Of a stretch of 64,000 bases of DNA, positions 59,857 through 64,000 are shown piece after piece. The notes beneath the pieces were generated by a model. The model was given only the letters and a program-made list of their open reading frames with translations, did not search any database and was not told the origin of the DNA. The DNA comes from Pseudodesulfovibrio nedwellii. GTDB lineage: Bacteria > Desulfobacterota > Desulfovibrionia > Desulfovibrionales > Desulfovibrionaceae. The stretch is taken from the NCBI RefSeq assembly GCF_027923765.1, contig NZ_AP026709.1:429501-493500 (forward strand), read 5' to 3'. How positions within the stretch are numbered: the first letter of the stretch is position 1; each line of letters opens with the position of its first letter. Position numbers and translations under genes: made by a program.

Positions 59857-60531
59857 TTATCGGCCTTGATCCGCGATATCCTGAAGGGCGGTTTCATCCA
59901 GAATGGTAATGTCCTTGCCGCTGACTTCGATAATTTTATCTTCTGCAAAGCGCTTGAAAATGCGGGATAATGTTTCCTGTATTGTGCCAAGGTAGTGCGC
60001 GATTTGACCTTTGGGAAGATCAAGTTTGAAGGTCGCTGAATCCTGTGAAGAACGCAGCAGGAGAAGATACGACGCGACGCGTGCAGGTGTCTCTTTGAGG
60101 CTTAGGTCATCAATCTTGTTGACCAGAATACGGAGACGTTGAGAAAGCATGGCCATCATTTTCATGGCCAAATCCGGGTCCTCTCGGATAATGCGTTCAA
60201 AGTCTTTGCGCGGGAAAAAAAGGGTTTCCAGTTTTTCTAAAGCCTGACCATTCGCTGGGAATGTGCCTCCTTGAAATACCGGCACCTCGCCCACCGCTTC
60301 ACCAGGGCCAAAAATGTGAAGTATCTGTTCCTTACCAGCCGGGGATGTTCTGAAAATCTTTACTCTGCCAATGACTGGCGCAAAGAATCCGTGGGCTGGC
60401 ACATCGCCAAGGAACAACGTCTCTCCTTTCTTGAACTTTTTTATAACGGCAATATCTGCAAGCTTAGTGAATTTTTCTTCGGGGAGTCCTTCGAAGAAGG
60501 CTATACCTTTGACTGCTGCAAGTTTATCCAT
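59857..60531 (-). CDS. HcpR-like Crp/Fnr-family regulator without cysteine
   Basis: A 224-residue regulator with an N-terminal cyclic-nucleotide-type beta barrel (about residues 10-125), a dimer helix (126-160) and a C-terminal winged helix (about 165-215). The barrel segment GKEQILHIFGPGEAVGEVPVF and FPANG match the HcpR type of sulfate reducers, which answers nitric oxide or nitrosative stress through heme. There is no Cys at all, so an FNR-like Fe-S cluster is impossible. The recognition helix has Glu186, Ser189, Arg190, as in FNR. It is divergent from the Fe-S operon; an FNR-like palindrome lies between. Confidence 0.82.
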   Translation of the reverse strand: MDKLAAVKGIAFFEGLPEEKFTKLADIAVIKKFKKGETLFLGDVPAHGFFAPVIGRVKIFRTSPAGKEQILHIFGPGEAVGEVPVFQGGTFPANGQALEKLETLFFPRKDFERIIREDPDLAMKMMAMLSQRLRILVNKIDDLSLKETPARVASYLLLLRSSQDSATFKLDLPKGQIAHYLGTIQETLSRIFKRFAEDKIIEVSGKDITILDETALQDIADQGR

Positions 60532-60569
60532 GAAATAATTTGCTCCATTTTTCGTTATGATACGGTAAT

Positions 60570-60583
60570 TTGACCTAAGTCAT
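60570..60583. promoter_or_regulatory. FNR-type operator candidate in the divergent intergenic region
   Basis: TTGAC-CTAA-GTCAT matches the FNR-type consensus TTGAT-N4-ATCAA in the conserved TTGA and TCA bases, and the core TGAC/GTCA is a perfect inverted repeat. Its centre is 45 bases from the regulator ATG and 56 bases from the GTG of the polyferredoxin gene. It lies where a shared operator would act on both promoters. Confidence 0.55.
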
Positions 60584-60632
60584 GGTTCCCGTCAAAAAAA
60601 AAGTTCATTGTCTGTGTACGGAGAACGAAACA

Positions 60633-61949
60633 GTGAAAAAGTTTTTTTGGATCATACCTTTGCTTGCCTTACTTTTGCTGGCAGCCCATTCGCTTAGACA
60701 AGGCGATTTTGGCTTAATGGCTTCTTTTGTCATTCTGGCCGGACTCCTGTTTACCCGACAGGCGTGGGTGCGCTGGGGTGTCGTTGCAGCTCTTTTGTGG
60801 GGTGGATTTATTTGGGCGGACGCCACCGTGGATTTTGTTAGTTTTCGACAGGCGTTTGATCTGCCATGGAAGCGACTGACTGCTATAATGGCGGGTGTTA
60901 TTGTATTTGATGGCTTTGCCCTGATGGCCATGCTGAGTCAGCGAGCCAAGGATTACTTTTTTGTTGCTCACGACAAGTCTGCGGCGCGTACTGCAATATT
61001 TATTTTGACGATTTTGGGACTGGCTTTGGCTCGAACCAAGGTTCCTTTTCCTGTCTTGTTGGCTGACCGGTACCTGCCAGGGTGGGGGTGGGCAGAAATT
61101 TTTGCGTTGGGTGTATACGCTCAATGGATTGGTGGGCGCATGATGCAACCTCGTGGGCACCGTACGCTTCGTCCTCGCATATGGGGATTGTTCTCGGTAT
61201 TGTTTTTTTTGCAATTGAGTTTGGGATTGATGGGCATGGAACAAATGCTCATGACCGGCAATCTCCATTTGCCGGTTCCTGCCTTGATCCTTGGAGGGCC
61301 TGTCTTCAGAGGCGGTGGGTTCTTCATGCTCATCCTGTTCTCCGTCACTATATTTTTGGTCGGTCCGGCGTGGTGCAGTCATCTTTGCTATATTGGTGCA
61401 TGGGATGACACCATGAGCCGCCTTGGTTCGCGTCCTGCGCCCAGTGGGATCCTGAGGCGTCTGAGTATTGTTGGACGTGGTACAACCTTGCTTCTGACAA
61501 TTGCTACAGCGTGGATTTTGAGGTCCATGGGGATGCCTGGTACTTCGGCCGTCTTATTCGCAGTCTTTTTTGGTCTGGTCGGTGTGGGGATAATGGCATT
61601 TGTTTCGCGGAAGGCTGGTATGATGACCCATTGCATCACGTTTTGCCCCATGGGTCTGATTGCAAATATCATGGGTAAGATTTCACCTTGGCGCATTCGT
61701 ATTAATTCCGATTGCACCAAGTGCGGTGCCTGTTACACGAGATGTCGCTACAATGCGCTGGATGAAAGTAGGATGGAATTGGGGCGTCCGGCTCTTTCCT
61801 GTACTCTTTGCGGCGATTGCGTGTCCGCTTGTGTGCACAAGCATATAGGATATAGTTTTCCGGGATTGTCCGGTGAGAATGCCAGAACACTGTTTATAGT
61901 TCTGGTTGTCACCCTACACGCCATCTTTCTTGGCGTGGCAAGAATGTAA
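60633..61949 (+). CDS. NapH/NosR-like membrane polyferredoxin
   Basis: A 438-residue membrane protein with about 8-10 hydrophobic segments. Between them are Cys motifs of the NapH/NosR/CcoG type (WCSHLCYIGAWDD and ITFCPMGLI), and at the C-terminus a ferredoxin domain with CTKCGACYTRCRYNAL and CTLCGDCVSACVHK, binding two [4Fe-4S] clusters. It likely moves electrons across or along the membrane; donor and acceptor are unknown. I chose the GTG at 60633 (GGAGA 8 nt upstream): the earlier ATG at 60582 falls inside the operator candidate. Confidence 0.82.
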   Translation: MKKFFWIIPLLALLLLAAHSLRQGDFGLMASFVILAGLLFTRQAWVRWGVVAALLWGGFIWADATVDFVSFRQAFDLPWKRLTAIMAGVIVFDGFALMAMLSQRAKDYFFVAHDKSAARTAIFILTILGLALARTKVPFPVLLADRYLPGWGWAEIFALGVYAQWIGGRMMQPRGHRTLRPRIWGLFSVLFFLQLSLGLMGMEQMLMTGNLHLPVPALILGGPVFRGGGFFMLILFSVTIFLVGPAWCSHLCYIGAWDDTMSRLGSRPAPSGILRRLSIVGRGTTLLLTIATAWILRSMGMPGTSAVLFAVFFGLVGVGIMAFVSRKAGMMTHCITFCPMGLIANIMGKISPWRIRINSDCTKCGACYTRCRYNALDESRMELGRPALSCTLCGDCVSACVHKHIGYSFPGLSGENARTLFIVLVVTLHAIFLGVARM

Positions 61950-61976
61950 AGATAAGAGAAAAGAGAGGATATCACC

Positions 61977-62765
61977 ATGTTGAGCACGAGAAAAATGATC
62001 ACTATTGATGAGGAACTGTGCAACGGTTGTGGCGAATGTGTCCCGTCCTGTGAAGAGGGCGCGCTGGCTATCGTTGATGGTAAGGCACGATTGGTTAAGG
62101 AAATCTATTGCGACGGATTGGGTGCGTGTTTGGGCGATTGTCCAACCGGTGCGCTCAAAGTTGAAGTGCGTGAGGCTGAAGATTTCAACCCTAAAGCTGT
62201 AACGGAACATCTGAAGGCACAAGGGCGAGAAGTGCCGGATCACATGCCTTCCCCGGAAAGTTTGCGTCTGGATAAGCCTGCCGGTTCTCCCAAGCCCATG
62301 GGCGGTTGTCCTGGTGCTGCTATGCATACCATGTCTCCCTGTGAACGGGCCAACATTCCCATGGCGTCGCCTGCCGGTGGTTCTGCATTGTCTCATTGGC
62401 CAGTACAGTTGCGGCTTGTTCCGCCGAATGCACCGTTTCTCAAAGGCGCAGATCTGCTTTTGACGGCAGATTGTGTCCCTGTAGCCATGCCATCTTATCA
62501 TAGTGAATATGTCGCCGGACGTGTTGTGGTTTTGGGTTGCCCCAAGTTTGACAATCAAATGGAATATGTAGAAAAGCTGGCCGATATTTTGACCGAGAAT
62601 GATTTGAAATCCATCACAGTTTTGGAAATGGAAGTGCCATGTTGTTCCTCCATGTCAGTGATTTTGCGTGAAGCCGTGAAGCGCGCCGGAAAAAAGGTCG
62701 ATACTGTTCGACTGACAGTCGGTAGAAATGGTAACGTTCTGGAAACTGTTCCTTTGGAATTTTAG
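61977..62765 (+). CDS. Ferredoxin-type 4Fe-4S protein with Cys-rich C-terminal domain
   Basis: A 262-residue soluble protein. Residues 8-60 are a ferredoxin domain (Cys15, Cys18, Cys21, Cys25, then CDGLGACLGDCP). The middle has GGCPGAAMH and SPCERAN. The C-terminal half (about 140-262) has LLTADCVPVAM, VVLGCPKFDN and EMEVPCCSSM, a layout seen in Fe-S proteins of sulfate reducers linked with the HcpR regulon. The activity is unknown. It follows the membrane polyferredoxin by 27 bases. Confidence 0.82.
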   Translation: MLSTRKMITIDEELCNGCGECVPSCEEGALAIVDGKARLVKEIYCDGLGACLGDCPTGALKVEVREAEDFNPKAVTEHLKAQGREVPDHMPSPESLRLDKPAGSPKPMGGCPGAAMHTMSPCERANIPMASPAGGSALSHWPVQLRLVPPNAPFLKGADLLLTADCVPVAMPSYHSEYVAGRVVVLGCPKFDNQMEYVEKLADILTENDLKSITVLEMEVPCCSSMSVILREAVKRAGKKVDTVRLTVGRNGNVLETVPLEF

Positions 62766-62780
62766 CAAGGAGTTTATCCC

Positions 62781-63098
62781 ATGAAGAAGACTGAATTATT
62801 CAATGAGCATGGTTTCAAGGACTTGACGTTTTCCAACTTCTTGGTGCACGAATCAGAGTTCATGAAGGTGATCAATTTCAACTTTCGGGCCGGGCAGCAA
62901 CTTCCTGTGCATTCCCATGAACTGGAAGGAGAATTGACCCTGACCATTCTTGAAGGTGAAGGTGAATTCCTGGCTGCGGATGGTGCGACCATGCCAGCTC
63001 GTACCGGTGATATATTGGTGTCGGAAATTGCAGAACCTCACGGCGTGAGGGCCACGACTGATATGCGTGTCCTCGTAACCATAGCTCCCCCTATTTAA
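62781..63098 (+). CDS. Cupin-domain protein
   Basis: A 105-residue single cupin barrel. The first motif with the metal ligands is LPVHSHELEGELTLTILEGEGEF (two His and one Glu), the second is AEPHGVRATTDMRVLV with one His. Such small cupins bind a metal and often sense or modify small ligands. Placed in the same operon as the Fe-S and siroheme proteins; its role there is unknown. Confidence 0.88.
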   Translation: MKKTELFNEHGFKDLTFSNFLVHESEFMKVINFNFRAGQQLPVHSHELEGELTLTILEGEGEFLAADGATMPARTGDILVSEIAEPHGVRATTDMRVLVTIAPPI

Positions 63099-63099
63099 G

Positions 63100-63765
63100 A
63101 TGGAAATTAAAGAATATATAAAAGAACTCCCAATGCGAGCCGTCAAGCCCCGAGGTGACGGCTCGTTTACTGTGGTGCCTCAGATGAGCCAGGGGCAGGT
63201 AGCAGCCAGGCAACTCGCCGCCATTCAGAGCGTTGTGGAAGAATACGGTTTGCCCGGAATTCGTGTCACGGCAGGGCAGCGTGTCATGATCGATGGTGTA
63301 TCCGCTGATATTCTTCGGGAAGTGGTGGAAAAAGTAGGGCCTGTCGGAGATGTTTTTAGACATAAGGTCCAATCCTGCTTGGGAACGACCGGCTGTAGGC
63401 TTGCCATGCAGGATTCCATGGGATTGGCAGCAAGGATGGAGGAATTTTTGAAGGATTACTCTTTGCCTACCAAACTCAAGTCCAGTGTTTCCGGCTGTTC
63501 AATGTGCTGCGCGGAGTCCTTGATTCGCGATATCGGATTGATCGGGCGCAAGACTGGCTGGACTGTTTCTTTTGGTGGAAATGGAGGGAAACGTGTTCGT
63601 CAAGGAGATGTCCTTGCGCAGGATGTCACCGAAATTGAAGCCTTTGAAATAATCGGAAAGGCGCTTGATTTTTATGCGGAAAACGCCAAGGTTAAAGAAC
63701 GCACTGCGCGATTTGCAGAGCGTGTTGGTGTGGACGCTATCAAGAAAGCAATCTTTGGCGAATAA
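63100..63765 (+). CDS. Small siroheme/4Fe-4S sulfite reductase-like protein
   Basis: A 221-residue protein of the nitrite/sulfite reductase superfamily in half-size form. A ferredoxin-like half-domain comes first (about residues 15-75), then the siroheme/cluster motif Cys93-x5-Cys99 (CLGTTGC) and Cys133-x3-Cys137 (CSMCC). This size and motif match the assimilatory-type low-spin sulfite reductase of Desulfovibrio. Which substrate (sulfite, nitrite or another) is used cannot be read. Its ATG stands one base after the cupin stop. Confidence 0.85.
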   Translation: MEIKEYIKELPMRAVKPRGDGSFTVVPQMSQGQVAARQLAAIQSVVEEYGLPGIRVTAGQRVMIDGVSADILREVVEKVGPVGDVFRHKVQSCLGTTGCRLAMQDSMGLAARMEEFLKDYSLPTKLKSSVSGCSMCCAESLIRDIGLIGRKTGWTVSFGGNGGKRVRQGDVLAQDVTEIEAFEIIGKALDFYAENAKVKERTARFAERVGVDAIKKAIFGE

Positions 63766-63792
63766 CTATTCTTATATTTGGAGTTTGTAATC

Positions 63793-64000
63793 ATGGCTCA
63801 GAAAGAGACACCCAAGGGCGCGATACTTCAGCGTGACAAGAAAACTTATGCCATCGTTCCCAGAACGCCTGTAGGGTTGGTCACGCCGGATGTCCTTGAA
63901 GCCCTCGCCCGGGTCGGTCGGAAATTTGAAATTCCGATTATGAAAATTACATCGGGTCAGCGGATTGCTCTTGTCGGTCTCGAAGAAGAGCAAGTGGATG
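63793..64000 (+). CDS. Nitrite/sulfite reductase-type half-domain protein, 5' part
   Basis: Cut by the window edge; 69 codons are visible. The start is the ATG at 63793 with GGAG 9 nt upstream. The peptide (LQRDKKTYAIVPRTPVGLV... PIMKITSGQRIALVGL) has the layout of the ferredoxin-like half-domain that precedes the siroheme site, similar to the start of the preceding gene (TAGQRVMIDGV against TSGQRIALVGL). So it is probably a second member of the same family in tandem. The Cys motifs lie beyond the window. Confidence 0.7.
   Translation, partial: MAQKETPKGAILQRDKKTYAIVPRTPVGLVTPDVLEALARVGRKFEIPIMKITSGQRIALVGLEEEQVD

Follow-up and report, generated by a model that had tools for sequence, protein, structure and literature searches.

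A 64,000-nucleotide stretch of the 3.76-Mb genome of Pseudodesulfovibrio nedwellii (the window; G000:C1:429501-493500) ends in a locus in which a CRP/FNR-type regulator gene and a plus-strand redox operon diverge from a 101-bp gap that holds the palindrome TTGACCTAAGTCAT. We consider it likely that this locus represents the regulatory and electron-supply half of the Pseudodesulfovibrio HcpR system for nitrosative stress, with hcp as an unlinked second target. At the level of sequence, this reading is supported by the family relation of the regulator, the site shared with hcp, the conserved promoter spacing, and the near-restriction of the site to two promoters. The locus comprises the following features:

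59857-60531, minus strand: HcpR-type CRP/FNR regulator, 224 amino acids, no cysteine; recognition helix with Glu186, Ser189 and Arg190; relatives lie opposite hcp/frdX in Desulfobacterota
60570-60583, no strand: palindrome TTGACCTAAGTCAT, probable HcpR site; nearly the same site precedes the unlinked hcp
60606-60611, plus strand: possible -10 element CATTGT, 22 bases past the palindrome, from the operon promoter comparison
60633-61949, plus strand: NapH-like membrane polyferredoxin, 438 amino acids, GTG start; hydrophobic segments, CX3C pairs, two ferredoxin-type motifs
61977-62765, plus strand: FrdX-type 4Fe-4S protein, 262 amino acids; C-terminal domain with conserved cysteines
62781-63098, plus strand: small cupin, 105 amino acids; adjoins frdX in 16/16 genus neighbourhoods
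63100-63765, plus strand: siroheme-type protein 1, with one NIR_SIR_ferr and one NIR_SIR domain, CX5C...CX3C
63793-64000, plus strand, continuing past the window end to G000:C1:493952: siroheme-type protein 2, 219 amino acids

A prior sequence-only reading of this DNA had named the regulator, the palindrome, and genes for a polyferredoxin, a 4Fe-4S protein, a cupin and two siroheme-type proteins, all of which were recovered where it had placed them. It had also put the palindrome about midway between the regulator start and the polyferredoxin GTG; measured from the palindrome centre, the regulator ATG (60531) is 45.5 bp away and the GTG (60633) 56.5 bp. A longer polyferredoxin frame begins with an ATG at 60582. 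Since this codon falls inside the palindrome, and since the L016 orthologue begins at the residues following the window GTG, the latter is the better start.

The operon palindrome recurs before a remote hcp gene

Searching G000 with PF03063 returned two matches, of which only that at 2464368-2465972 (minus strand), some 2 million bases from the operon, was taken as hcp. The other, at 2746344, was rejected: judged by sequence, it resembles a CO-dehydrogenase gene and neighbours that of a CooA-like regulator. The site TTGACTCAAGTCAT lies 89 bases before the hcp start. The search for the palindrome upstream of hcp that had been proposed as a check was thus positive in the window's genome, and it was so across the genus: among the 28 of 30 hcp loci that were readable (L217 and L235 were left out), at least 8/10 palindrome bases were present in 28/28 and 9/10 in 22/28, at positions -84 to -108.

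The exact motif is close to confined to these two promoters. Across 36 genus genomes, TTGACYYAAGTCAT occurred 56 times (at least once in 32 genomes), as compared to three times for a reversed control; by coordinates, 26 sites fell at the operon, 27 at hcp and three elsewhere. The sequence TTGACCTAAGTCAT itself was identical at the operon promoter in 26/36 genomes. G000 harbors only five exact copies of TTGACNNAAGTCA, three of them inside open reading frames (ORFs) and the others being the operon and hcp sites. With up to one mismatch, TTGACNNNNGTCAA matched 172 times in 3.76 Mb (reversed control, 93), so that about 0.005 matches would be expected in the 101-bp gap. The best site before the regulator reached at least 9/10 bases in 15/19 genus loci (0.55 expected), 12/32 family loci (1.43) and 36/75 outer loci (1.95), the expectation being taken from random windows of the same loci. 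A chance palindrome is rejected by these scores together with the exact-site counts and the conservation at hcp.

The three additional genus sites (two in G116, one in G209) do not outnumber the three of the control. That in G209 lies 1.1 kb from the regulator yet before the polyferredoxin gene (same coordinates in L015). One G116 site (L297 2495) is flanked by an HPP-type membrane gene on one side and a NorV-like flavorubredoxin gene on the other, the latter scoring above the NCBIfam cut-off, and is suggestive of an extra regulon member. A site of this type was found within 300 bases of the flavorubredoxin gene in 0/6 other listed loci (at least 62% identity), in three of which other genes closely precede it, so that these 300 bases may stop short of the promoter; a seventh copy, in G207, has no locus and falls outside that count.

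Site and spacing are conserved at both promoters

In 29/29 hcp promoters, a TA pair follows 22 bases past the site. At the same spacing, the operon promoters carry CA-N3-T (C in 19/20, A in 19/20, T in 18/20), the count covering the 20 of 30 loci with a fit to the site pattern. In one of the promoter alignments, the row for the window stood one base out of register, and the sites of L273, L289 and L292, missed in the promoter comparison owing to ORF calling or distance, were taken from the exact-motif search. A site centred about -41.5 has class II activator spacing; with CATTGT as the -10 element, the palindrome would possibly be centred at about this position. The FNR-type site and divergent control claimed beforehand are supported.

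The palindrome spacer is nearly fixed per promoter, being CTAA at the operon and mostly TCAA at hcp, which may tune affinity or orientation. Directly after the palindrome, at 60584-60602, most operon promoters of the genus share a tract GG-N5-GTCAAAAAAAA, which is not conserved before hcp.

A cysteine-free HcpR-type regulator

The regulator matched PF00027 and PF13545 above cut-off, giving it the two-domain CRP/FNR architecture, and has an orthologue in 35/36 genus genomes. Inspection of the 224-amino-acid ORF bore out the absence of cysteine and the retention of Glu186, Ser189 and Arg190. Lack of cysteine is normal for this regulator family: 86 of 129 aligned regulators have none and the maximum is three, so none possesses the four that an FNR-type cluster requires. 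FNR proper, the oxygen sensor with four cysteines for its [4Fe-4S] cluster, is thereby ruled out for the window protein. Cyclic AMP sensing is unlikely too, as what we take to be the Arg-Ser pair of CRP would correspond to Pro92-Ala93 here. The HcpR-type assignment, by contrast with these two, held up: besides the architecture, relatives are linked to hcp and frdX, and the motif TTGACnnnnGTCAA precedes hcp and frdX units, as in HcpR regulons. His72 is conserved in 97% of 131 aligned proteins. For Porphyromonas gingivalis HcpR, whose structure has been solved, NO (nitric oxide) sensing by heme is described, with Met68 being important (PMC12750200). For the window regulator, heme sensing as entertained in the sequence-only reading is at most a possibility.

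hcp is separated from its usual partners in the genus

Many regulator relatives in a GTDB scan (best 80 of 304 kept) lay opposite hcp, an HD-domain protein gene and an frdX-type gene. Where the divergent flank exceeded 5 kb, an frdX-type gene was present in 30/58 and hcp in 23/58 of these loci; four distant loci with neither were inspected and had unrelated neighbours. A search of 199 genomes gave a match in 170, and further neighbourhoods were drawn from 77 of these (genomes other than G000), mostly the best matches. The family loci were centred on, and thus picked by, the frdX-type gene, with which qualification the other-genus loci with more than 5 kb of divergent flank contained that gene in 24/28 and hcp in 22/28 cases. 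Among all 61 other-genus family loci, hcp lay beside frdX in 45, and regulator, polyferredoxin, hcp and frdX-type gene occurred together in 17.

Conserved neighbourhoods with the operon apart from the regulator had been named beforehand as evidence that would speak against a joint system. Within the genus none was seen: the regulator is next to the operon in 16/16 neighbourhoods, and it is hcp that is absent there in 16/16 and located elsewhere in the genome in 35/36 genomes. In other genera of the family, frdX units apart from the regulator do exist, a regulator relative being found at most 7 kb from frdX in only 31/61 loci and none seen in 30 (some of them short contigs). A FastTree regulator phylogeny placed the genus (node support 0.995) beside a family clade with 15/17 members hcp-linked; most simply, hcp would have departed from the operon in the Pseudodesulfovibrio lineage. 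Two loci, L143 and L017, are reduced, with the regulator opposite FrdX and cupin genes only and no polyferredoxin or siroheme genes recognised.

A proposed route for NO defence

In the proposed mechanism, NO, or nitrite yielding NO, would cause the regulator to bind TTGACYYAAGTCAT and to activate two promoters, that of its own divergent operon and that of the unlinked hcp. The NapH-like polyferredoxin would pass membrane electrons to FrdX, and FrdX would hand them to Hcp, which would reduce NO. Electrons may also reach the small siroheme proteins by the FrdX route, and further reduction of nitrite, NO or hydroxylamine would take place there. This electron path, from polyferredoxin to FrdX, Hcp and siroheme proteins, is suggested by gene content. 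Against the NapH/MauN model TIGR02163, the polyferredoxin scored 44.8 bits (cut-off 213.05) over residues 340-424 only, and so does not qualify as NapH itself; the FrdX label derives from gene context and sites, namely its being encoded with hcp and under HcpR sites, not from sequence identity.

Nitrosative-stress defence is the best reading because HcpR, hcp, frdX, cupin and a polyferredoxin/siroheme operon have been connected with NO or nitrite in the literature. In Clostridioides difficile, NO leads HcpR to raise expression of hcp and frdX about 200-fold, and knockdown of either gene causes NO sensitivity (PMC12915319). In Desulfovibrio desulfuricans, cupin plus hcp ranks among the two clusters that NO induces most strongly (PMC5701242). 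A polyferredoxin/siroheme operon belongs to the predicted HcpR regulon and is nitrite-induced according to a personal communication (PMC545781). The sequence-only reading had named a nitrogen or a sulfur oxide as what the operon might detoxify. With the palindrome also present before hcp, and given this literature, nitrogen-oxide stress is the likely signal, and a sulfur oxide is kept as a rival.

Several observations weigh against this reading. Individually, the six hcp sites with 8/10 bases are not better than shuffles (0.08-0.175). G205 has no hcp match and keeps the operon with a degenerate site, and G198 and G148 have an exact hcp site and no exact operon site. With one mismatch allowed, the refined motif yielded 39 and 30 sites in G000 vs 35 and 28 for the control; as this is no enrichment, it is the exact sites and their conservation that carry the case. 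The operon -10 element (CATTGT) is weak. The position of His167 in DNR, presumably the heme ligand, aligns with Ser162 of the window regulator, so this ligand is not conserved. Siroheme-type protein 2 (at least 80% identity) is full-length in only 20/36 genomes and split in one more, and therefore a fixed two-subunit siroheme enzyme cannot be essential. We infer signal, direct binding, activation, electron path and siroheme substrate. Finally, the model published for the hcp-linked HcpR2 of D. desulfuricans is that of an Fe-S cluster repressor (PMC5701242), which differs from the activator role proposed for the window regulator and from its lack of cysteine.

Alternative readings

A possible, though less likely, view gives the small siroheme proteins a role in electron carriage or siroheme handling instead of that of reductases, leaving detoxification to Hcp only. 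A canonical siroheme reductase has two repeats and a single-repeat protein amounts to about half of one; both window proteins have a single repeat. Full-length NirB, or a complete siroheme nitrite or sulfite reductase, is excluded, as the model TIGR02374 scored 151.6 bits (cut-off 578.35) over profile positions 556-762 of 794 only. The proteins rather belong, likened by domain content, to the small Dsr-like group I/DVU_1597 type, with only NIR_SIR_ferr and NIR_SIR domains, CX5C...CX3C and no inserted ferredoxin domain. An electron-transport role for Dsr-like proteins has been raised (PMC3448663), but the CX5C...CX3C ligands are kept in 15/15 siroheme-1 and 10/10 siroheme-2 proteins labelled in genus loci.

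In a genome of the same species, G203 (L299/L300; G203:C51:124500-157500), an insertion of about 30 kb interrupts siroheme gene 2 and carries genes for a tyrosine recombinase, a RecD-like helicase and CusA-type metal efflux as well as a further siroheme protein 2 homologue of 64% identity. Downstream of siroheme-type protein 2 (end 493952) in G000 lie trkA/trkH-like genes (names read from sequence).

A bolder version, which we regard as doubtful, would tie the two units by one palindrome into an unrecognised nitrosative-stress respiratory chain: Hcp would act as NO reductase, and the polyferredoxin-FrdX relay would also feed half-size siroheme enzymes, such that NO and nitrite would be turned into ammonium in the cytoplasm without NrfA.

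Improbable, in our view, is that the operon handles sulfite or another sulfur oxyanion through assimilatory-type sulfite reductases fed by the polyferredoxin, with hcp sharing only a general redox signal. The host genus is a sulfate reducer, the domains found here occur in sulfite and nitrite reductases alike, and the small D. vulgaris sulfite reductase DVU_1597 is described as being of this simple type (PMC3448663). However, the other genus target of the palindrome is hcp, frdX and a cupin are NO-induced in other organisms (PMC12915319, PMC5701242), and the best NCBIfam match of the small siroheme protein is the siroheme part of the nitrite reductase NirB, albeit below cut-off.

G000 encodes two further CRP/FNR proteins above cut-off, the CooA-like one and a paralogue at C1:2438905-2439561. 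It is very improbable that the latter controls the sites, with the window regulator acting elsewhere. Having the same contact residues (PEALSR), the paralogue could bind TTGA-type sites, but the window regulator adjoins the site and is present in 35/36 genomes, and 8/11 genomes with a single HcpR-like match at E 1e-10 keep both sites, which can therefore be accounted for without the paralogue (completeness is below 90% in three of the 11; among the eight, G213 is only 82% complete).

Relation to known HcpR systems

The HcpR nitrosative-stress reading places the locus in a known kind of system, HcpR-based NO defence; what is new is the arrangement, with hcp moved away under an almost identical site. 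The HcpR regulon of delta-proteobacteria was predicted in 2004 (PMC545781) and 2005 (PMC1274295), with an FNR-like motif, wyTTGACnnnnGTCAArw, in non-Desulfovibrio species. The window shares with it a CRP/FNR regulator family found near hcp-frdX and a polyferredoxin plus sulfite/nitrite-reductase operon as member, but differs in that regulator, polyferredoxin, frdX, cupin and two siroheme genes form one divergent unit without hcp, which is remote. Its motif is FNR-like, whereas that published for Desulfovibrio is CRP-like (TGTGA-N6-TCACA; PMC545781, PMC1274295). The system, for which the earlier reading knew no described counterpart with this exact gene set, is thus partly known: an HcpR-controlled polyferredoxin and sulfite/nitrite-reductase operon was predicted in 2004 (PMC545781). 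A literature search returned no study of HcpR in Pseudodesulfovibrio.

Unlike the window, the C. difficile hcpR-frdX-hcp cluster is compact, and the available part of its description mentions no polyferredoxin or siroheme proteins (PMC12915319). In D. desulfuricans 27774, cupin and hcp are neighbours in the strongly NO-induced hcpR2-cupin-hcp cluster (PMC5701242). L145 and relatives, from another genus of the family, have the same divergent regulator type, polyferredoxin and frdX in a SIR(Fer4)-polyferredoxin-hcp-frdX operon with the palindrome TTGACTCAAGTCAG; there, the operon includes hcp, and its siroheme protein has ferredoxin-type motifs.

Because the site marks almost only two promoters, that of hcp alone and that of its usual partners, each half can be deleted and tested separately. 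The proteins that travel with hcp, namely FrdX, the polyferredoxin, the cupin and the small siroheme proteins, thereby become testable, and the genus offers a clean example of a gene that left its operon yet kept its control site.

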